Shown piece by piece: positions 7,388 through 16,327 of a stretch of DNA of 43,515 nucleotides (position 1 is the first letter of the stretch; each line of letters starts with the position of its first letter). Location of the stretch: the NCBI GenBank assembly GCA_040881685.1, contig JBBECS010000006.1:1-43515 (forward strand). The letters run 5' to 3'. Below the pieces are notes generated by a model that made no database searches, was not told where the DNA came from, and saw nothing but the letters and a program-made list of their open reading frames with translations. This stretch comes from Acidimicrobiia bacterium. GTDB lineage: Bacteria; Actinomycetota; Acidimicrobiia; IMCC26256; PALSA-555. The position numbers and the translations under genes are program-made.

Positions 7388-8145
7388 CGCCGTTGCGCCA
7401 CCAGGGCGCCGCCGTCGACCACCAGCGTCTCCCCGGTGATCCACGACGCAAGGTCGCTGGCGAGGAACAACACTGCGCCGGCAATGTCGATGGGCTCACC
7501 GAGCCGTTCGAGCGGCATCGTGGCGGCGACGAGATCCTCGGCCGGCTCCCACAGTGCGCGTGCGAAGTCGGTCTTCACGAGACCCGGCGCGATTGCATTC
7601 ACGCGCACACCAGGTGCCAGCTCGGCAGCCAGCACCTTGGTGAGATGGACGAGCGCAGCCTTGGTCACGTTGTAGACGCCAATTCCCGAGTCGTGGCGCA
7701 GGCCACCGATCGAGACGACGTTGACGACCGAGCCACCCGCGTCGCGCATGCCCGCCCGCCACGCCTCCTGGGTCCACACCAGCGGGCCGCGCACGTTCAC
7801 CTGGAACGTCTTGTCGTAGCGCGGTAGGTCGACATCGATGACCGGACCCATGTGCGGGTTCGTCGCGGCGTTGTTCACCAAGATGTCGATCGATCCGAAC
7901 CGCTCGACCGTGGCCGCGACGCACGCAGCGGCTTGTTCAGGCTCACCCGCGTTCGCCGCGAACGTCTCGACCCGTCCAGGTCCTTTGATCGTCCCCGCGG
8001 CTTCGTCGAGCGCCTCCTGTTTGCGGGATGAAAGCATCACGTTGGCTCCCGCGCTCGCGAACGCGTCGCAGATCGCGAGCCCGATGCCGCGCGAGGCACC
8101 CGTGACCAGCGCGCTCTTGTCGGTGAGATCCAGTGTGGTCGCCAC
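7384..8145 (-). CDS. Short-chain dehydrogenase/reductase
   Basis: A 253-residue classical SDR. The cofactor loop TGASRGIG, the NNAA motif (VNNAATNP), the catalytic Ser-Tyr-Lys (VVSIGG, then YNVTKAA) and the C-terminal FLASDLASWITGETLVVDGG are all present. The absence of an acidic residue pattern after strand 2 (LSSRKQEAL) suggests NADP(H). The GTG at 8145 lies 7 nt after TAACGT (8158-8153). A longer frame upstream runs antisense-free but has no SDR content. The family oxidises or reduces 3-hydroxyacyl, steroid or sugar alcohol groups. Next to crotonases, a beta-oxidation-like step is plausible. Confidence 0.93.
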   Translation of the reverse strand: MATTLDLTDKSALVTGASRGIGLAICDAFASAGANVMLSSRKQEALDEAAGTIKGPGRVETFAANAGEPEQAAACVAATVERFGSIDILVNNAATNPHMGPVIDVDLPRYDKTFQVNVRGPLVWTQEAWRAGMRDAGGSVVNVVSIGGLRHDSGIGVYNVTKAALVHLTKVLAAELAPGVRVNAIAPGLVKTDFARALWEPAEDLVAATMPLERLGEPIDIAGAVLFLASDLASWITGETLVVDGGALVAQRR

Positions 8146-8192
8146 GGCGCACACGTTACGTGCATTGGCGCGACGTTCCCGTCGACGCTGGA

Positions 8193-8564
8193 TCAGACGC
8201 GACCGTGCTTGACCAAGCGGAATCGGCGTCCGTCGTCGGCGTCGGTCACCGCATGCTCGTCGACCACTCGCGTGAGGATGGTCTCGGTGAACTCGTTGTC
8301 GACGGACGCCCCGGGTGTGCTGGCGAAGCCTTCGACGATCACCGCATTCGGTTCGGTGTGGAAGTCGATGGCCACGGTGCCGGCCGCGCCGGTCCCGATC
8401 AGCACGTGGCACAGCTCGTTGACCCCGATCCGGAGGTCGTCGATCTCCTCGTAGTTGAACCCGGCGCGACTCCCGGCGTCGGCGGCGGCCAGACGGGCCA
8501 ATCGCAGGTACTCGGGGTTCGCCGGGACCACTAGCGTCACGCGCTGTTCGTGGTTCGCAGACAT
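8193..8564 (-). CDS. RsbW/UsfX-like anti-sigma factor (HATPase-fold)
   Basis: A 123-residue protein similar to the RsbW-like protein at 15.1-15.5 kb. Both share VxPAxxxYLRxxRLxAADAxxRAGxxxEExxDxRxxVxELCH. The GHKL-type fold is recognisable, but the N-box reads ELCHV instead of ExxxN and no DxGxG box is seen, so ATP-dependent kinase activity is doubtful. The mycobacterial SigF antagonist UsfX also has an altered N-box. A role in binding a sigma factor or a STAS protein is inferred from family and neighbours. The ATG at 8564 lies 9 nt after TATTCT (8579-8574). Confidence 0.75.
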   Translation of the reverse strand: MSANHEQRVTLVVPANPEYLRLARLAAADAGSRAGFNYEEIDDLRIGVNELCHVLIGTGAAGTVAIDFHTEPNAVIVEGFASTPGASVDNEFTETILTRVVDEHAVTDADDGRRFRLVKHGRV

Positions 8565-8715
8565 CCCGGCGAGAGAATACGACGTCGGACGGCGTTCGAC
8601 CCCGACCGACGAACGGCGACCGACCGGTCGCGCCTGCTTCGGTGTCGTGGATGTGCTGATGGGTCCGATGTACCCGAACGATGAGCCCGCCAATCGCAAT
8701 GGTGGATACCGGGGG

Positions 8716-8740
8716 GTTTCGTGCCCTCGGCGACGGGTAT
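8716..8740 (+). promoter_or_regulatory. SigF/SigB-type promoter
   Basis: GTTTC at 8716-8720 and GGGTAT at 8735-8740, separated by 14 nt, match the general stress sigma consensus (GTTT...GGGTA). The ATG of the downstream gene (8750) follows after exactly 9 nt, the same distance as at two other sites of this type in the window. Confidence 0.7.
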
Positions 8741-8749
8741 CCATCACCC

Positions 8750-9064
8750 ATGAGCATCGAAGCGATCTCCAACGGGCAGGACGAGCAGGTCGAATTGGTA
8801 CCGCGGGGGATGGTCTCGCCGCGCGTGTCGGAGCTTGTTGCGTGGGCGTCGATGGTGGACCCGGGCCGCGCTCCGTCAGCGCCCCGGCACGATCAGGCGC
8901 TCGAGGCCCTCGCTGAGGCCGCGGACGGCGATGGTGACCTCGTGCACCGGGCGTGGCTCGTCGCGCTGCGCGCATTGCGTGACGGCTCGGTCACCCGATC
9001 GTCGGTCAGCTTGCTGCGCGCGACGGCGGACAAGCTCTTGTCAACCGCTCATCGAGCGGGTTGA
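8750..9064 (+). CDS. Hypothetical protein under stress-type promoter
   Basis: A 104-residue acidic, mostly helical protein with no family I recognise. Helices at about 25-35 and 42-90 (ALEALAEAADGDGDLVHRAWLVALRALRDG, then SVSLLRATADKLLSTAH) suggest a small soluble helical bundle. No Cys, no signal peptide and no membrane segment are present. An in-frame ATG upstream exists, but the ATG at 8750 is chosen because it sits 9 nt after GGGTAT. It converges on and overlaps by 16 bp the 3' end of the STAS gene. The promoter and location suggest a general stress response protein. Confidence 0.6.
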   Translation: MSIEAISNGQDEQVELVPRGMVSPRVSELVAWASMVDPGRAPSAPRHDQALEALAEAADGDGDLVHRAWLVALRALRDGSVTRSSVSLLRATADKLLSTAHRAG

Positions 9065-9381
9065 TCGGAGCGTTCGAAGAAGTCCGAGAGGCCGGCCACG
9101 TCGAGGATGCGGCGCGTTCGGTCGTCCAGGCGATGCAGGACGAGCGAGGCGCCCTGCGCCTCGAGGTCGTGGTGTGCCTTGACGAGCACGCTGATCCCAC
9201 TCGAATCGAGGAACGTGAGCCCGCCGAGGTCGAGGCGCACCATGTCGGGCTCCGCGGCGATTGCCTTCTCGCACTCGAGGCGGAGATCGGGTGCCGTCGC
9301 GAGATCGATGTCGCCGGCCACCACGATGACGATGGCGTCGCCGTCGTGAGCCGACTCGATGGAGAAGCCCCCGTCCCTCAT
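9049..9381 (-). CDS. STAS-domain anti-anti-sigma factor
   Basis: A 110-residue SpoIIAA/RsbV-type protein. VAGDIDLATAPDL is the first strand and helix, and the phosphorylatable serine lies in LTFLDSSGISVLV. The rest of the STAS fold (LVLHRLDDRTRRILDVAGLSDFF) is complete. In partner switching the unphosphorylated form binds the RsbW-type protein and frees the sigma factor. The ATG at 9381 is preceded by TAGCCT (9395-9390) with 8 nt between. It is transcribed away from the SGNH gene and faces the hypothetical stress gene. Confidence 0.9.
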   Translation of the reverse strand: MRDGGFSIESAHDGDAIVIVVAGDIDLATAPDLRLECEKAIAAEPDMVRLDLGGLTFLDSSGISVLVKAHHDLEAQGASLVLHRLDDRTRRILDVAGLSDFFERSDQPAR

Positions 9382-9437
9382 GGCGGCGCAGGCTATCGGA
9401 AGCCTTCCCGAGGCGTGCCAGCCGTTCGGGCGACGTC

Positions 9438-9463
9438 GTTTCTGGTCCGTGCGGTACGGGTAT
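9438..9463 (+). promoter_or_regulatory. SigF/SigB-type promoter
   Basis: GTTTC at 9438-9442 and GGGTAT at 9458-9463 with a 15-nt gap, again exactly 9 nt before the chosen start (ATG 9473). It lies divergent from the STAS gene promoter. Confidence 0.7.
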
Positions 9464-9472
9464 GAAGGCCCC

Positions 9473-10090
9473 ATGACAACAGCAACGAGGCATGGTCCTC
9501 GCGCGCTCTGGGTCGGGCTTCTCGCCGCGATCGCGGTCGTCTCGGTGGCCTGCGCGCCTCAGTTCCGAGCCGCGGACACGAAGGTGCTGCTCGTGGGCGA
9601 CTCGTTGCTCGACAGATCGAGGCTGCCGGTGTCGGATGCCCTCACGGAGGCCGGATGGGACCCGCGTATCAAGGCGGATGGCGGCCGGAGCATCACCTTC
9701 TTCCAAGACAAAGTCCCGCTGTTCGCCGGGTCCACCCAGCCCGGCGTGATGGTCATCGAGCTGGGGACGAATGACTGCTCGCCGGTGCTGTGTGTGCCGC
9801 TCGGACCCGCCATCGACCAGATCATGGGCAGTGTGCCGTCCGACTACCCGGTGCTGTGGCTGAACGCGCAAACAGATGTTCCCGCTCCATTCAACGAGAA
9901 CCGCGACTTCGTCAACGGCGAGCTCGAGGACGCCGACTCTCGCTGGCCGAACCTCTATCTCGTCGATCTCGACGGGCACTTCGCCGGGCACCCCGAATGG
10001 CATGAGGACGACGGGCTGCACTTCAACGAAGAGGGAAGGCACGAGTTCGCGCGCTTCCTCGTCGACGAGCTGGACCGTTTCAAGCCCTGA
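9473..10090 (+). CDS. Secreted SGNH/GDSL hydrolase, probable lipoprotein
   Basis: A 205-residue protein with an N-terminal signal (TM about 11-25) ending in VSVACAP, a plausible lipobox with Cys27. The SGNH blocks follow: block I VLLVGDSLL (Ser nucleophile), block III ELGTNDC (Asn) and block V DGLHFNEEG (Asp and His). It should be an extracytoplasmic esterase or lipase acting on acylated sugars, lipids or cell-wall material. The substrate is unknown. A longer frame exists upstream, but the start at 9473 gives the signal peptide and is 9 nt from a GGGTAT promoter. A 13-bp GC hairpin 38 bp downstream is the likely terminator. Confidence 0.88.
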   Translation: MTTATRHGPRALWVGLLAAIAVVSVACAPQFRAADTKVLLVGDSLLDRSRLPVSDALTEAGWDPRIKADGGRSITFFQDKVPLFAGSTQPGVMVIELGTNDCSPVLCVPLGPAIDQIMGSVPSDYPVLWLNAQTDVPAPFNENRDFVNGELEDADSRWPNLYLVDLDGHFAGHPEWHEDDGLHFNEEGRHEFARFLVDELDRFKP

Positions 10091-10128
10091 CGCCGTACCG
10101 ACGTCGCGTCGCTGCACCCGAACGTGCA

Positions 10129-10163
10129 GCGGCCCGGCTGGTGCGGGGGTCCAGCCGGGCCGC
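10129..10163 (+). terminator. GC-rich hairpin terminator after SGNH gene
   Basis: GCGGCCCGGCTGG (10129-10141) pairs perfectly with CCAGCCGGGCCGC (10151-10163) around a 9-nt loop. No U-tract follows, as is common for actinobacterial hairpin terminators. The rest of the 250-bp gap to the phosphatase stop codon holds no gene that I can support. Confidence 0.7.
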
Positions 10164-10340
10164 CGAGCCCGACCCTCAGGTCAGGCGCAAGGAGCTTCCG
10201 ACCCGGCCGCGGGGCGATGACCAGATCACTGCTCCTCCCGAGGTTGGGCTGTTCGCCTCGGTTCTCTGCTCATGTTCCCGCTTGGCGCTGGGCCGAAACC
10301 CCGAATCTGCACCGGGAGCGAAGGGACGGGAACCGGCGCC

Positions 10341-13300
10341 CTACGAGCGGGCCCGCCGGCGGGCCCACCAGCCCCGCACCCCGCGTCTCCGTCGGGGGTG
10401 CCGCGGCCGCGCCCTCGGACGGGGCTCACGCTCCAGGGGCCCGACTTTGGTCACCCGGATGGCCATGAGCGCGACGTCGTCGGCCGGGCCGCTCTCGGGC
10501 AGGGTGTGCTCGAGGACGTGGTCGCTCAGGAGCTCGAGGTCTTCGGGCGCGCTCGTGAGTGCGTCCCGGAGGCGACTCAAGCCGACGTCGATCGACTCGG
10601 CTCGGCGCTCGATGAGCCCGTCGGTGTAGAACACCAGCACGTCACCCTCGCGCAGCCGGATGCTCCGCTCGCGGTACTTGGTGGTCGCGTCGGCACGGAG
10701 CGGTGGTCCGAGTGCTCCGCTGAGATAGCGCGCCTTGCCCGTGCGCCGCATGCGCAAGGTGGGCGGATGCCCGGCGCTCGCGAAGCGGAAGACACGGCTT
10801 CGCGGGTCGTACATCGCAACGGCCACCGTGGCCATGTCGGCATCGGGCAACGTGATCAACCACCGGTTGAGCTGTTCGAGGATCGCCCGAGGCCGAAGGC
10901 GATCGAGTGCGGCGAGCTGAGCTGCCGAGCGCAGCAGGCCCGTCGAGGAAGCAGCTTGCAGGCCGTGACCGACCACGTCACCGATCGCGAACAGCACGTT
11001 CCCGTCCGGCATGGCGAACACGTCGTACCAGTCGCCACCGACGCGCTCGCTCTCGCCAGGGAGGTACCGCACGGCCGTGGCCACGCCGGGAACCGACGGG
11101 ACGTGTTGAGGAAGCAGACTCCGCTGCAAGGTCTCCGCGGTTGCGCGCTCGCGCTCGAACCGCTCTGCGTGTCGGAACGATGCCGCGGCCCTTCGAGCGA
11201 GCTCGTTGGCGATCGGGACGTCGTTGTCGCCGTAGCGCCGTTCCGACCATGCGTACATGAACGAAATGGTGCCGAACGCGTCACCGTTCTCGTCGATGAG
11301 CGGGGCGCAGAGGATGGACAGAACCCCGGCGCCGATGCCCGGGGTGGCGAAGTGATGGGTGCGGTCGCGCCGCACGTCGGGGATGAGCACCGGTTCCCCG
11401 GTGTCACACGCCTCGCGGTTCGGCGTTTGCAGTCCGGGTGGGAGGTCGTTCCATCGATCGATTGCCCGAAACGGCTCGGCCAGATCCGAGTCGGCTACTG
11501 CGAACTCTTCGAGCTCGAACCCGCCTTCGTCGTCCCGGAGGTGGAGGACGCACACATCCGCGAAGTTGGGAACGACATCCCGGACGAAGCGACGCATGCG
11601 CGCATCGACGTTGAGCTCGACGGCGATGAGCTCGCCTGCCCTCGCCAGCACGTCGAGCTGCTCCTGGGAGCGGAGCGCCTCCGCCTCGAGGCGCGCGGCC
11701 TCGATCACCTGGGCAAGGCGCCGCGCCAGCTCCTCGGCCAGGCCGAGATCGGAATGCCGGTACCGGCGCCCTGAGAGGGGCGTGTAGTTGAGAACCAGCA
11801 GGCCGATCACCTCGCCGCGAGTCTCGAGCGGGGCGACGATCGCTGACGTGGCGCCGTGCTCCTCGATGAGGCGGAGGTGCTCTTCGTTCTGGGCGAATCG
11901 CCGGTGCATGTCGGAGGGGACCTCCGCGAGGCGGACTGCCGATCCATCCGCCACCGCGGCGCGGCTGGCGGTGAGATCGAGCGGCCACCGGCGTTCGGCG
12001 TCCTGCAAGAGCGAGCGGGTCTCCTCGCTGGCGTGGCCCACCGCGACGCGCGGTTCGGCCGACGCGGTCTCGAACAGGTACAGCTGGCACGAGTCGGCGA
12101 ACTCGGGGATGACGATCTGGACCGCCTCTTCGAGCGTTGCGTCGAGATCGCTCGTGCGGGCGAAGAGCTCGCTCGCCCGGGCAATGAGGAGTGCGGCGGT
12201 CTCCTGGCGCTTTCGGACGGTGAGGTCGACGAACACCGCGCCGAGTCCGAGCACGTCGCCGCTCGCCGGCCTGACCGGGTAGCACGACACGAGGTAGTGG
12301 CGCTCGAACCACTTCGTTCCGGGCACCCACCCGCTCACCTCCACGTCGACCACCGACTCTTGGGTGGCGATCACGTGCTCGAAGGTGGCCCTCACCTGAT
12401 CCCACAGGTCGGGCAGCACGTCGGCGATCGGTTTGCCGAGATGCTGGGGGATCGGGAGCCCATCCATGGCCGAGAAACGACCGTTGACACGCACGAATCG
12501 AAGCTCGTTGTCGAAGAACGCGAAGGCGAACGGGGAGTGCTCCAGCAGCGTGTCGAGTCGGGCGACGGTCTCTTCGAGCGTTCGTCGGGTGTGTTGCTCC
12601 AGCTCCAGCAGACGCTCGCGTTCCTGCTCGACGGCTTTGCGCTCATGTACGTCGATCGCAACGCCGATCCAGCGAGCGTTCTGAAGGTCGGCGACCCGCG
12701 AGCCGCGCCCCTCGACCCATCGGATCGTTCCGTCGGGGAGCACGACGCGGTGCTCCATCTCGATCTGCGTGTCGTTATGCACCGCGGTGCGGATCGTCTT
12801 GACGACGAGCTCCCGATCCTCTGGGTGCACGTGCTCGATGTACGCGGCGAAGCTTCCCGGGAACGAACCCGGCACGACTCCGAACAGCAGCGAGAGCTCG
12901 GGCGACCATCGGACGTTGTCCGACTCGGGCTGCCACTCCCAAGTGCCCATGCGCCCGGCTTCGAGCGCGAGTCGCAGGTGGGTCTCGCTGGTGCGCAGCT
13001 CGTGCTCCACCCGCTGGCGGGCGAGAGCCGCGCCGAGGATATTCGCGACGTTGCGCAGGAAGTTGACGTCGTCGTTGGTGAAGTCGCCGGGCCGAGAGCT
13101 GTGCGCCGAGAGCACGCCGACGGATCCGTGCTCGTTGCGGATCGGTGCACATGAGCTGGAGCGGATCTTGCGCGTCCCCTCGGGTTCGCCGGACTCGGAG
13201 CGGCGATGCTCGACCCAGTCGTCGATCACGATCGGCTCGGCCAAGACGATCGTGTCCCGTGCAAGCCCGAGAAGCTCTTCGTCGCTCCCGGAGCGGGTGA

Positions 13301-13919
13301 GCCGGGTCCGGCGCGGCCCACGGCTCGCGACCACGCGAAGATCGTGCTCCGGGGTCATCTCCAGCACCATTGCGCTGTCGAGCGCGAGCGCATCGGTGAC
13401 GAGCCGCGCCGCGTCCGCGGCGAGGTCGCGGAAGTCGCGCCCGGTCAAGGCTGCCCGACCCAGGTCGGCGATCGCCGCACGTTGGCGGGTTCGCTGCTCG
13501 AGGTCGGCCCGCACCGTCCGCTGGTCGGTGACATCGTGGGCCGAGACGAGGAAGCCGAGCAGCTCGCCATCCGGCCCGAAGCGTGGATGACCGCGCTCGG
13601 CCACCGTTCGGTACTGACCGTCGACCCGCCGCACTGCGTACTCCGTCCCGTACGCCGCGCGCTCCTCGACCGCTCGTCGGTACCCGTCGCGTACACGGCG
13701 CTCGTCGTCGGGGTGGATGCCTTCGGCCCAACCGGCACCGAGCTCCTCGACGAGCGGACGACCGCGGAACGCGAGCCACGCCCGGTTGCACCACGTGCAC
13801 GTCGTGGCGTCGGGCGCGGTCGTCCGTACCATCACCGGGGCGTCGTCGAGTGCCGCGGAGAGATCCCCGTCCACCTCGAAGCGATCGCGTGCGGAGGTGC
13901 CGCGACGACGCAGCCTCAT
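10341..13919 (-). CDS. Multi-sensor PP2C (RsbU/SpoIIE) phosphatase
   Basis: A 1192-residue cytoplasmic protein. By eye the order is PAS (about 20-140), GAF (150-310), PAS (315-440), PAS (465-590), GAF (595-760), GAF (770-935) and a SpoIIE-type PP2C phosphatase (950-1160). The metal motifs of the phosphatase are intact: GGDWYDVF, IGDVVGHGLQAA, YTDGLIE and PADDVALMAI. No membrane segment is seen. It would dephosphorylate STAS antagonists in response to small-molecule, redox or light cues sensed by the PAS/GAF array. It is the last gene of the operon RsbW-like, sigma, STAS, phosphatase and starts 27 nt after the STAS stop. The C-terminal 30 residues are Arg-rich and low-complexity. Confidence 0.92.
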   Translation of the reverse strand: MRLRRRGTSARDRFEVDGDLSAALDDAPVMVRTTAPDATTCTWCNRAWLAFRGRPLVEELGAGWAEGIHPDDERRVRDGYRRAVEERAAYGTEYAVRRVDGQYRTVAERGHPRFGPDGELLGFLVSAHDVTDQRTVRADLEQRTRQRAAIADLGRAALTGRDFRDLAADAARLVTDALALDSAMVLEMTPEHDLRVVASRGPRRTRLTRSGSDEELLGLARDTIVLAEPIVIDDWVEHRRSESGEPEGTRKIRSSSCAPIRNEHGSVGVLSAHSSRPGDFTNDDVNFLRNVANILGAALARQRVEHELRTSETHLRLALEAGRMGTWEWQPESDNVRWSPELSLLFGVVPGSFPGSFAAYIEHVHPEDRELVVKTIRTAVHNDTQIEMEHRVVLPDGTIRWVEGRGSRVADLQNARWIGVAIDVHERKAVEQERERLLELEQHTRRTLEETVARLDTLLEHSPFAFAFFDNELRFVRVNGRFSAMDGLPIPQHLGKPIADVLPDLWDQVRATFEHVIATQESVVDVEVSGWVPGTKWFERHYLVSCYPVRPASGDVLGLGAVFVDLTVRKRQETAALLIARASELFARTSDLDATLEEAVQIVIPEFADSCQLYLFETASAEPRVAVGHASEETRSLLQDAERRWPLDLTASRAAVADGSAVRLAEVPSDMHRRFAQNEEHLRLIEEHGATSAIVAPLETRGEVIGLLVLNYTPLSGRRYRHSDLGLAEELARRLAQVIEAARLEAEALRSQEQLDVLARAGELIAVELNVDARMRRFVRDVVPNFADVCVLHLRDDEGGFELEEFAVADSDLAEPFRAIDRWNDLPPGLQTPNREACDTGEPVLIPDVRRDRTHHFATPGIGAGVLSILCAPLIDENGDAFGTISFMYAWSERRYGDNDVPIANELARRAAASFRHAERFERERATAETLQRSLLPQHVPSVPGVATAVRYLPGESERVGGDWYDVFAMPDGNVLFAIGDVVGHGLQAASSTGLLRSAAQLAALDRLRPRAILEQLNRWLITLPDADMATVAVAMYDPRSRVFRFASAGHPPTLRMRRTGKARYLSGALGPPLRADATTKYRERSIRLREGDVLVFYTDGLIERRAESIDVGLSRLRDALTSAPEDLELLSDHVLEHTLPESGPADDVALMAIRVTKVGPLEREPRPRARPRHPRRRRGVRGWWARRRARS
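10349..10366. terminator. Perfect 18-bp GC palindrome at the phosphatase 3' end
   Basis: GGGCCCGCCGGCGGGCCC is a perfect palindrome lying in the last codons of the phosphatase gene, 6-25 bp before its stop. It could act as a cruciform-type or loop-less terminator for the leftward operon. Because it is inside coding sequence made of Arg/Ala codons, it could also be coincidental. Confidence 0.35.
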
Positions 13920-13946
13920 GACGGGCCGCCCGCCGAGGGAGTCAGC

Positions 13947-14306
13947 TCAGTTCTCGATCCTGAACAGCTCGGTGAGCCCGGTGATCTCGAACACCCGCCG
14001 AACCGGCTCCTGCAAGTTGCAGAGCATGATGGTGTCACCCTGTTGATCCTTCAGCCGCTTGACAACGCCTACGAGCACCCCGAGTCCCGACGAGTCGATG
14101 AAGCTCATCGCTTCGAGGTCGAGCACGATCGTACGGGCACCGCGCTCCAAGCAGTCGTGGAGCTCGGTGCGCAGCCGCGGCGACGTCGCCACGTCGATCT
14201 CACCGTGCACCGTCACGATCCATTCGTCATCGCCTGCACCGGTCGTGGTCTCGAAGTCAACGGTGGCAAGCGTCTCGCTCTCGGGTTCGTGTGCTGGTGC
14301 GCTCAT
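13947..14306 (-). CDS. RsbV-like STAS anti-anti-sigma factor
   Basis: A 119-residue SpoIIAA/RsbV-type protein with a 25-residue acidic N-terminal tail. VHGEIDVATSPRLRTEL and the phospho-site MSFIDSSGLGVLVGVVKRL are canonical, and the C-terminal VRRVFEITGLTELF completes the fold. The ATG at 14306 has a strong ribosome binding site (GAGGAGG). It lies 22 nt after the sigma gene and 27 nt before the PP2C gene, so it is the natural substrate of that phosphatase and the antagonist of the RsbW-like protein encoded two genes upstream. Confidence 0.93.
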   Translation of the reverse strand: MSAPAHEPESETLATVDFETTTGAGDDEWIVTVHGEIDVATSPRLRTELHDCLERGARTIVLDLEAMSFIDSSGLGVLVGVVKRLKDQQGDTIMLCNLQEPVRRVFEITGLTELFRIEN

Positions 14307-14328
14307 GGAGCCTCCTCGATGCTCGACC

Positions 14329-15087
14329 TCATCCGGACGCGCTCAACACCGTGCGCGCGTGCACTCCCAATGTGTTCAAGCTCCGGGTGAGCAGCCGTGA
14401 CACGTGCATCTGGCTGATCCCGATCTGTTCGGCGATCTCGGCCTGCGTGAGCCCTTCGAAGAAGCGGAGATACACGATCTGACGCTCACGCTCGGGCAGT
14501 GACGCCATGAGCTGCTCGACCGCGAGACGCTCGTCGGCACCCTCGAGCTCGGGATCTTCGTCGCCGATCGTGGCGATCGTGGACTCCTCGGCGTCGGGGC
14601 GCTGGTAGTCGAGCGACGTGAGTCGGTACAACGTCCCTGCTTCCATCGCCTCGAGCACGTCGTCGTCGCGGACGCCGGCGTGCGTGGCGACTTCCGCAGT
14701 CGTCGGCGTGCGTCCGAGGTCCTGGTGGAGGGCTGCCACGATCCCTCGCAGCTGGAGATGCAGCTCCTGCACCCGGCGTGGGACACGGACCGCCCAGCCC
14801 TTGTCACGGAAGTGACGCTTGAGCTCACCGAGGATGGTCGGCGTGGCGAAGGACGTGAACTGAACGCCACGGGCCGGGTCGAACCGCTCGACGGCCTTGA
14901 GCAAGCCCACCAGTGCGACTTGGCGCAGGTCGTCGAGGGGCTCGCCGCGATCGGAGAACCGGGCCGCGAGCGCTTCCGCGAGCCGCATGTGATCGCGGAC
15001 CAGGTCGTTGCGCAGCTCGCGGTCGCCCGATCGACGGTAGTGCTCGAACCGTTCGAGCATCTCGGCCTGCTCTTCCGGCGTTCTCAT
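14329..15087 (-). CDS. SigF/SigB-family RNA polymerase sigma factor
   Basis: A 252-residue group 3 sigma factor. Region 2 spans about 25-105 (DLRQVALVGLLKAVERFDPARG, then FTSFATPTILGELKRHFRDKGW), region 3 about 110-175 (VRVPRRVQELHLQL..., GRTPTTAEVA) and region 4 about 190-245 (LPERERQIVYLRFFEGLTQAEIA, with the HTH IGISQMHVSRLL). This matches stress and sporulation SigF/SigB/SigG sigmas, which recognise GTTT...GGGTA promoters. Its ATG overlaps the stop of the RsbW-like gene by 4 nt (ATGA), so the sigma and its antagonist are translated together. Three promoters of the matching type lie within this locus. Confidence 0.95.
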   Translation of the reverse strand: MRTPEEQAEMLERFEHYRRSGDRELRNDLVRDHMRLAEALAARFSDRGEPLDDLRQVALVGLLKAVERFDPARGVQFTSFATPTILGELKRHFRDKGWAVRVPRRVQELHLQLRGIVAALHQDLGRTPTTAEVATHAGVRDDDVLEAMEAGTLYRLTSLDYQRPDAEESTIATIGDEDPELEGADERLAVEQLMASLPERERQIVYLRFFEGLTQAEIAEQIGISQMHVSRLLTRSLNTLGVHARTVLSASG

Positions 15088-15485
15088 CGGGTCATGGCTC
15101 CCGTATGGCTCCGGTGGACGAAGAAGTGCAGCTCGTCACCGCAGAGGTCGAGCTCGTAGGCGTCGGCCAACGCGGTGACGATGGTCGCCGAGAGCTCGGT
15201 CATCGCCGGCCAGGTGCCGGTTCGAGCCTTCGTCGCACCTCGCGCGACCACACCCGCATCGGTTCGGGTGAACGACAGGTGCAGGGCGTGATCGGTTGCG
15301 ACCATCATCGTGTGGCAGAGCTCATCGACGGCGAGGCGGAAGTCTTCGGTCTCCTCACAGTCCAGCCCTGCCCGTGCGGCGGCATCAGCGGCGACGAGGC
15401 GGACCGACCGCAGGTACCTGGAGTACGGCGGTATGACCATGACGAGCTCGTCACCGAGATCTCCGAACGAATCCCAGGTCACCAT
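15084..15485 (-). CDS. RsbW/UsfX-like anti-sigma factor
   Basis: A 133-residue GHKL-fold protein, first gene of the sigma operon. The conserved block RSVRLVAADAAARAGLDCEETEDFRLAVDELCH matches the paralogue at 8.2 kb. The N-box is ELCHT, without the Asn, and no DxGxG box is visible, as in mycobacterial UsfX. It should bind the sigma factor encoded immediately downstream. Kinase activity on STAS partners is uncertain. I start it at the ATG at 15485, which has GGAGG 7-8 nt upstream. An in-frame ATG 60 bp earlier lacks one. No GGGTAY promoter was found for this operon, so the sigma factor may not be strictly autoregulated. Confidence 0.8.
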   Translation of the reverse strand: MVTWDSFGDLGDELVMVIPPYSRYLRSVRLVAADAAARAGLDCEETEDFRLAVDELCHTMMVATDHALHLSFTRTDAGVVARGATKARTGTWPAMTELSATIVTALADAYELDLCGDELHFFVHRSHTGAMTR

Positions 15486-15621
15486 ATCCCCCTCCTGCCG
15501 GGGAAATCCCGACCGATCCTGGCTTCTGGAGTCACCCGCGACCAATGAAACCCGCCAAACACACTGGCATCTCTTCCCGCTCCGGGTGGCGGCGAAACCC
15601 GCGGCGGCCCGAGATTCCGGC

Positions 15622-15647
15622 GTTTCGGGGTGCCCCTGGCGGGGTAC
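15622..15647 (+). promoter_or_regulatory. SigF/SigB-type promoter for whiB
   Basis: GTTTC at 15622-15626 and GGGTAC at 15642-15647 with a 15-nt gap, 9 nt before the GTG at 15657. It faces away from the sigma operon across the intergenic space. Confidence 0.65.
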
Positions 15648-15656
15648 CTAACCTAC

Positions 15657-16007
15657 GTGCCCACCGCAACGCAGGTTCGGGGCCGCCGGGCATTTGCCGG
15701 GGCGCTCCGGTGGACCCAGCTGGCCCTGTGCCGAGGTCAGACCGAGCTCTTCTTCCCCCCGTTCCACGAACGCCCTGAGCGGCGGGCGAGGCGGGAGCAC
15801 CAGGCGCGCGCCGTCTGCGCCGCGTGTCCCGTGCTCGAGCCATGCCGAGGGTGGGCGCGCGAGAACCACGAGTACGGCTTCTGGGGCGGCGAGAGCGAAG
15901 AGGAGCGCGCCGAAGCCGGGTATCGCGCGGCGATCTCTGGCGGCGAACAGATCGACTGGTCAGCGGCCGAGTGGACCGGCGCCGTGCCGGTTCGTCAGGC
16001 GGTGTGA
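15657..16007 (+). CDS. WhiB-family Fe-S transcription factor
   Basis: A 116-residue Wbl protein. The four cluster ligands are present: Cys in LALCRGQ, then CAACPVLEPC (CxxC...C), followed by the turn GFWGGESEEER, the family's G[VIF]WGG signature. WhiB proteins bind a 4Fe-4S cluster and act with region 4 of a sigma factor to tune transcription in redox or stress responses. The GTG at 15657 is supported by the GGGTAC promoter 9 nt upstream. An ATG nine codons earlier overlaps the promoter spacer. A STAS gene follows after 5 nt, an unusual pairing that ties this regulator to partner switching. Confidence 0.9.
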   Translation: MPTATQVRGRRAFAGALRWTQLALCRGQTELFFPPFHERPERRARREHQARAVCAACPVLEPCRGWARENHEYGFWGGESEEERAEAGYRAAISGGEQIDWSAAEWTGAVPVRQAV

Positions 16008-16012
16008 CGGCG

Positions 16013-16327
16013 ATGGCGGCGCTGTCCGTGGACTCCATGCAGCGCGCGTCGTCGCGTGCGCAGGTGATCGGCAGGGTCGGCAGAGACAACGCCGAATGGC
16101 TGCTCGGGCTGCTCCGCGAGCTCGAAGGTGACGTCACGCTCGACTGTCGGCACTCGTCGTTCGTGGACTCGGCTGCCTTGATGGTGCTCGTCGATTTCGA
16201 CGAGTTCCTGCGAAGTCGGGGCAACAGCTTGACGATCTGCGGTGTGCCCGACGGCGCTGCCGCGGCTATCCCGACGGCGGCGTCGGTGATCGCCCGTGGT
16301 TCTTCGCCCACCGCAGCGTCAAGCTGA
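16013..16327 (+). CDS. STAS-domain protein co-transcribed with whiB
   Basis: A 104-residue protein with a divergent STAS fold. VIGRVGRDNAEWLLGLLREL is followed by LDCRHSSFVDSAALMVLVDFDEFL, where FVDSAAL matches the phosphorylatable (F/L)DSSGL loop of RsbV-like proteins, and then NSLTICGVPD. The C-terminus is short and Ala/Ser-rich. It begins 5 nt after the whiB stop and its last 62 bp overlap the 3' end of the convergent alkB gene. It is probably a third anti-anti-sigma protein, possibly partnering the second RsbW-like protein. Confidence 0.7.
   Translation: MAALSVDSMQRASSRAQVIGRVGRDNAEWLLGLLRELEGDVTLDCRHSSFVDSAALMVLVDFDEFLRSRGNSLTICGVPDGAAAAIPTAASVIARGSSPTAASS

Follow-up and report, generated by a model that had tools for sequence, protein, structure and literature searches.

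A probable UsfX-type SigF switch with an orphan anti-sigma factor homologue in an 8.1-kb block of an Acidimicrobiia genome

Introduction

The system described here is a SigF partner-switching locus in a 43,515-nucleotide stretch of DNA (the window hereafter) from an Acidimicrobiia bacterium (GenBank assembly GCA_040881685.1, contig JBBECS010000006.1, positions 1 to 43,515). It is best compared with the mycobacterial SigF system (UsfX/RsbW1, RsbW2, RsbW3, RsfA and RsfB). In M. smegmatis, RsbW1 was found experimentally to be an anti-sigma factor without kinase activity and RsbW2 to be the kinase. The third protein, RsbW3, which is likewise kinase-negative, has a SigF promoter and is an antagonist that forms a pair with RsbW1 (PMC7693655). 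The locus in the window shares with this system an RsbW without kinase motifs encoded together with SigF, multiple STAS antagonists, GTTT-N-GGGTA promoters, a further RsbW that is kinase-negative by sequence and, as candidates, a SigF-type promoter for that RsbW and a separate kinase. Unlike the mycobacterial genes, those in the window form one compact 8-kb block, in which a dedicated six-sensor PP2C phosphatase belongs to the sigF operon, the extra RsbW (RsbW-A) appears to come from a second RsbW-SigF pair, and the genes for a WhiB-like protein and a third STAS protein (STAS3) are divergent from the operon.

The RsbU/RsbV/RsbW-SigB system of B. subtilis resembles the locus in having PP2C, STAS, RsbW and SigB/F genes in one operon and in the autoregulation of the sigma factor, which is predicted here. 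However, both RsbW proteins of the window lack kinase motifs, so that RsbW cannot be the RsbV kinase, and the phosphatase, unlike RsbU, carries its own PAS and GAF domains and is more RsbP-like. The Streptomyces SigH (UshX/PrsH) locus also couples an anti-sigma gene to a sigma gene and has a WhiB-like gene, wblE, about 2 kb away. In contrast, the WhiB gene of the window is divergent, immediately adjacent and followed by a probably truncated STAS gene, and the SigH locus has only one RsbW-type gene. A literature search on partner switching in Acidimicrobiia, and on WhiB proteins associated with STAS proteins, returned nothing useful.

With a SigB/F-family sigma factor, a sigF-coupled RsbW lacking kinase motifs and STAS proteins with a phospho-acceptor serine, the locus has the gene content of the SigF/UsfX kind, which is already known. 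The new variation is the combination of an orphan RsbW-A with an island that carries its own promoters. We consider it probable that the block encodes a UsfX (RsbW1)-type switch under its own promoters, with RsbW-A as an RsbW3-like spare anti-sigma factor.

Gene content and RsbW type

The core of the locus is a minus-strand operon in which the RsbW-B gene (15084 to 15485) overlaps the start of the SigF gene (14329 to 15087) by 4 nt, followed by STAS2 (13947 to 14306) and the RsbU/RsbP-like PP2C phosphatase (10341 to 13919). The sigma factor matched TIGR02980 with 271.8 bits against a cut-off of 234 (4.5e-81) and fell into the SigF-B clade of our tree. STAS2, an RsbV/RsfB-like antagonist, matched the STAS domain at 9.1e-23 and TIGR00377 above its cut-off. 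The phosphatase matched SpoIIE at 1.1e-45, and the motifs GGDWYD, GDVVGHG, YTDG and DDVAL are all present. The six sensor domains reported in the initial annotation of the locus proved in Pfam to be three PAS and three GAF domains, ordered PAS-GAF-PAS-PAS-GAF-GAF upstream of the SpoIIE domain. On the same strand lie STAS1 (9049 to 9381; STAS 9.8e-20, TIGR00377 above cut-off), a predicted anti-sigma antagonist, and RsbW-A (8193 to 8564; HATPase_c_2). The WhiB (15657 to 16007; Whib 6.2e-15) and STAS3 (16013 to 16327) genes are on the plus strand. The phospho-acceptor region reads DSSG in STAS1 and STAS2 and DSAA in STAS3. The annotated gene list of one SigF, two RsbW-like proteins, three STAS proteins, a PP2C and a WhiB protein was therefore sound, each being an open frame with family support. 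The HATPase_c_2 scores of both RsbW-like proteins were just under the Pfam cut-off, and their support came from modelling and from matches in the PDB (UsfX and RsbW for RsbW-B).

Both RsbW proteins have ELCH in place of the GHKL motif E-x-x-x-N and possess no recognisable G1 or G2 boxes. A complete classic RsbU/V/W/SigB set, counted once in the initial annotation, is therefore not present, and the STAS proteins must be phosphorylated by a kinase whose gene lies elsewhere in the genome. The RsbW family profile matched M. tuberculosis UsfX almost from end to end (positions 3-106 of 122), whereas its match to B. subtilis RsbW was confined to the N-terminal part (positions 4-89). The AlphaFold2 (AF2) model of RsbW-B had a pLDDT of 90.6, and the nearest structures in a fold search were UsfX complexes with RsfB or SigF, followed by RsbW and SpoIIAB. 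Judged by these features, both RsbW proteins are of the UsfX/RsbW1 type, which is the rule beside actinobacterial SigF. The presence of two RsbW proteins without kinase motifs had been considered as an exceptional trait of the locus. This was rejected, as the N-box was missing from 47 of the 48 RsbW genes located within 300 bp of SigF in a set of 80 named loci.

A candidate for the RsbW2-type kinase of the STAS proteins is encoded elsewhere in the genome (C9:38909-39367). Among the PF13581 matches of the genome above the cut-off, which were the ones inspected individually, it was the single stand-alone GHKL protein, the others being long sensor kinases. Its motifs ELVTNAVRHA, DTG and GGYGL are N-, G1- and G2-like, respectively. 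Such a kinase gene was also found close to the related loci of G034, G008 and G043. In G008, genes for an intact GHKL kinase, for a 162-residue protein that matched nothing in Pfam and for a STAS protein form an operon (L126:16555-17876) 5 kb from the SigF/WhiB cluster.

Two ancestral RsbW-SigF pairs

Four genomes of the order, from related families (G014, G016, G029 and G030), possessed two head-to-head RsbW genes, each followed by its own SigF. These double loci share with the window the two RsbW clades and a SigF-B with STAS2 downstream, but they have kept SigF-A, which the window has not. RsbW-B of the window clustered with the RsbW proteins on the SigF-B side (SH-aLRT support 98), and RsbW-A with those on the SigF-A side (support 86). 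By their clustering, RsbW-A and RsbW-B are old paralogues. The SigF-A clade (support 97) contained no member from this genome (G000) or from G008, the sole other member of the family with the system, leaving RsbW-A orphaned. RsbW-A is thus, as far as the trees indicate, an anti-sigma homologue that is missing its sigma factor and has been kept in two genera. In G008, two SigF-B-RsbW-B pairs, one with a very divergent RsbW-B, accompany the orphan RsbW-A (L126:7060-11124).

A mirror-image loss was found in the family f14, where G034 lacks RsbW-B and has consecutive genes for RsbW-A, SigF-A and SigF-B. These three are co-directional, with a kinase-STAS pair divergent from them (L136:1789-5571). 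A second genome of this family, G024, was consistent with the pattern, to the extent that its fragmented contigs allow a judgement. The strongest evidence for possible cross-talk between the two branches comes from these mirror losses, though they do not identify the contacts involved. The branched switch proposed in the initial annotation thus holds as ancestry, each of the RsbW clades sitting with its own SigF in four related genomes. This genome itself no longer has the second sigma factor, so that the branch is either vestigial or rewired.

SigF-type promoters

The motif GTTT-N14-18-GGGWA occurred five times in the window, against 0.39 expected and in 0 of 100 shuffles, and all five sites were inside the block. 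Three are exact GTTT-N15/16-GGGTA sites on the plus strand, each 11 nt ahead of a start codon. These precede a small protein (site 8716-8739, N15; frame 8750-9064), a GDSL/SGNH-like putative lipoprotein (site 9438-9462, N16; frame 9473-10090) and WhiB (site 15622-15646, N16). The other two are GTTT-N16-GGGAA variants on the minus strand, one ahead of the RsbW-B-SigF-STAS2-PP2C operon (15574-15598) and one with no clear target (10275-10299). A script scan returned a less certain site, GATT-N16-GGGTA, upstream of RsbW-A (8671-8695, minus strand), which is not associated with a leaderless start. The small protein and the putative lipoprotein were not in the initial gene list. The former had no Pfam or NCBIfam match and no homologue among the fetched loci, and the latter matched Lipase_GDSL_2 at 3.3e-7, just under the cut-off, and has a lipobox-like VSVAC sequence. 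The form of the sites is shared by experimentally mapped promoters of the SigB family in S. coelicolor (GTTTCG...GGGTAC; PMC8346170).

In SigF-region loci across the order, a start codon was found exactly at +11 in 12 of 58 GTTT-N-GGGWA sites, including the three in the island, a count far above that at other offsets. This suggests that many SigF transcripts in the order are leaderless. The +11 spacing points to 8750 for the small protein, 9473 for the lipoprotein and the GTG at 15657 for WhiB as likely starts, and all three genes are predicted leaderless SigF targets.

Genome-wide, the strict form GTTT-N15-17-GGGTA had 10 sites, compared with 5 in a backwards control. Three of the 10 were in the island (P about 2e-6) and two formed a divergent pair at C32, while the other five did not stand out. 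Of the predicted chromosomal targets of this SigF, the one at the C32 pair (sites at 49725 and 49757) is the most evident. On one side of the pair is a gene for a GlsB-like Transgly_assoc protein and on the other a frame for a 19-residue hydrophobic peptide, MYIGVGTLVLIIVLVLLFA (G000:C32:49650-49850; L280:4650-4850). Two of the genomes that kept both pairs, G014 and G029, had 15 and 19 strict sites, against 2 and 5 in their controls.

An empty site in congeners

The genes flanking the block, an SDR gene that ends near 8145 and an AlkB-like gene on the right, were only 29-89 bp apart in all three congeners (G001, G002 and G003). The whole block (8150 to 16290) is therefore a single insertion here or a single deletion in the congeners. 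Its breakpoints are approximate, about 8137-8192 on the left and about 16266-16305 on the right, and the span of the initial annotation (8193-16327) nearly coincides with it. Absence of the extra genes from close relatives had been named there as a point that would weaken the idea of a branched switch; unexpectedly, it was the entire 8.1-kb locus that was absent. Misassembly at contig ends is argued against by the position of the block in mid-contig and by the match of both flanks to the congeners. Searches for RsbW relatives in phages and plasmids returned no match, and thus gave no sign of a mobile vector. At the right junction (16266-16300), the AlkB-like 2OG-Fe(II) oxygenase has a C-terminus unlike those of the congeners and overlaps the end of STAS3 tail to tail.

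WhiB and STAS3

The WhiB translation has the four cysteines, CAACPVLEPC and a GFWGG loop expected of the Wbl family, and its gene lies 5 nt from that of STAS3, with a SigF-type promoter in common. A WhiB gene as a neighbour of SigF was considered as a peculiarity of the locus and rejected, since 49 of the 80 named loci, from many genera, have one nearby, mostly about 2 kb downstream. In S. coelicolor, wblE, whiD and wblJ are close to sigma-factor genes (PMC6282962). In G008, a WhiB gene is likewise divergent from an RsbW-B gene and preceded by the same motif, with no STAS gene behind it. Adjacency of WhiB and STAS near SigF was otherwise found only in G043 and in one Pseudonocardia locus. The initial description of a WhiB tied to a STAS partner as unusual therefore applies to the adjacency and not to the proximity of WhiB to SigF, and the STAS protein in question appears truncated. 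The WhiB tree had too few columns and long branches, and did not settle whether the WhiB of the window descends from wblE.

STAS3 is probably missing the last part of the STAS fold, as the 3′ end of its gene extends into the AlkB-like gene at the right junction of the island. Its Pfam matches end early (71/80 and 82/106), its alignment lacks the C-terminal helix that other STAS proteins have (VRRVFEITGL), and AF2 confidence collapses past residue about 88. Where the helix would be, the frame continues in sequence antisense to the AlkB-like gene.

Discussion

From the gene content, the lost kinase motifs, the clades, the empty site and the enriched promoter motif, we infer the following binding and phosphorylation steps. 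RsbW-B would bind and hold SigF, and unphosphorylated STAS2, probably together with STAS1, would displace SigF from it. The STAS proteins would be phosphorylated by an RsbW2-like GHKL kinase from outside the locus, for which C9:38909-39367 is the candidate, and the six-sensor PP2C would remove the phosphate upon stress. Freed SigF would then transcribe the RsbW-B-SigF-STAS2-PP2C operon, WhiB-STAS3, the small leaderless protein, the GDSL lipoprotein and perhaps RsbW-A, along with a few chromosomal genes such as that of the GlsB-like membrane protein. RsbW-A would be the leftover of a second SigF-RsbW pair. Its most likely present role is in the switch that remains, where it would either pair with RsbW-B in the manner of RsbW3, boosting the response, or add a second brake on SigF. 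Its possible likeness to RsbW3 lies in the absent kinase motifs and in the GATT variant upstream. Several points weigh against this reading. The binding and expression steps are predictions, the candidate kinase is unlinked to the locus and the STAS proteins are only its putative targets, and the promoter of RsbW-A is the weaker variant. Furthermore, the clade placement of RsbW-A rests on 86% support, and RsbW-A could be decaying, as its branch is longer than those of most paired copies. The direction of the island event is also unproven, with no integrase, no convincing flanking repeats (none longer than 10 nt at the island ends) and no strong compositional shift (GC3 0.84 in the island and 0.88 in the flanks).

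The role of RsbW-A allows two other readings. One, which corresponds to the branched switch of the initial annotation, is that the remaining SigF has two functional anti-sigma factors, RsbW-A being the second, in a two-input switch in which STAS1 serves RsbW-A and STAS2 serves RsbW-B. This is possible, although we would not expect it. In its favour, RsbW-A is beside STAS1, RsbW-B shares an operon with STAS2, RsbW-A persists without SigF-A in two genera, and the f14 genomes keep SigF-B with RsbW-A alone, an indication that SigF-B can be served by RsbW-A. However, G034 is just 80% complete, the contact of RsbW-A with SigF is putative, and the analogous kinase-negative RsbW3 of M. smegmatis does not bind SigF (PMC7693655). 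It is unlikely that RsbW-A, STAS1 and WhiB-STAS3 are decaying leftovers beside an operon that alone still works. The loss of SigF-A, the truncation of STAS3 and the absence of the locus from congeners would fit decay, but neither RsbW-A nor STAS1 is shortened or has lost its core motifs, SigF-type promoters precede WhiB and, as a variant, RsbW-A, and G008 has also kept an orphan RsbW-A. Least probable by far is a redox or NO input in which WhiB would act through STAS3; the redox part of this had been proposed in the initial annotation. The 5-nt spacing under a common promoter, the conserved cysteines and the same gene order near SigF in G043 and beside the Pseudonocardia SigF are set against the missing C-terminal part of STAS3, the G008 WhiB without a STAS gene and the known partner of WhiB, which is sigma region 4 and not a STAS protein (PMC6282962).

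As to the island, an ancestral locus may have been deleted in the three congeners and kept here, with no insertion involved. We hold this to be the doubtful course of events. It would agree with the presence of RsbW-A and SigF-B genes in G008, of the same family, and with the want of an integrase, repeats or marked shift in composition. On the other hand, all three congeners share the tight SDR-AlkB junction, the STAS3 tail runs into AlkB antisense sequence, as expected of a foreign end joined there, and the G008 locus is in a different neighbourhood. Gain of the island is therefore favoured over loss.

Taken together with the probable UsfX-type switch, these observations allow the tentative suggestion of a horizontally acquired, near-closed circuit. 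It would bring its sensor, brakes, antagonists and promoters, would mostly control itself while borrowing a kinase of the host, and would reuse the orphan anti-sigma factor of a lost second switch as a modulator. The locus is a compact case of a sigma factor that forms one block with a fair proportion of the promoters detected for it. Its chief value lies in this island with self-directed promoters and in the orphan anti-sigma factor with mirror-image losses in relatives. It amounts to a natural experiment on the gain and loss of branches in partner-switching networks: related families keep both RsbW-SigF pairs, one has lost SigF-A and kept RsbW-A, and another has lost RsbW-B and kept SigF-B. 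Owing to these contrasting losses, specificity or cross-talk of the paralogous switches is testable by a few pairwise binding assays.

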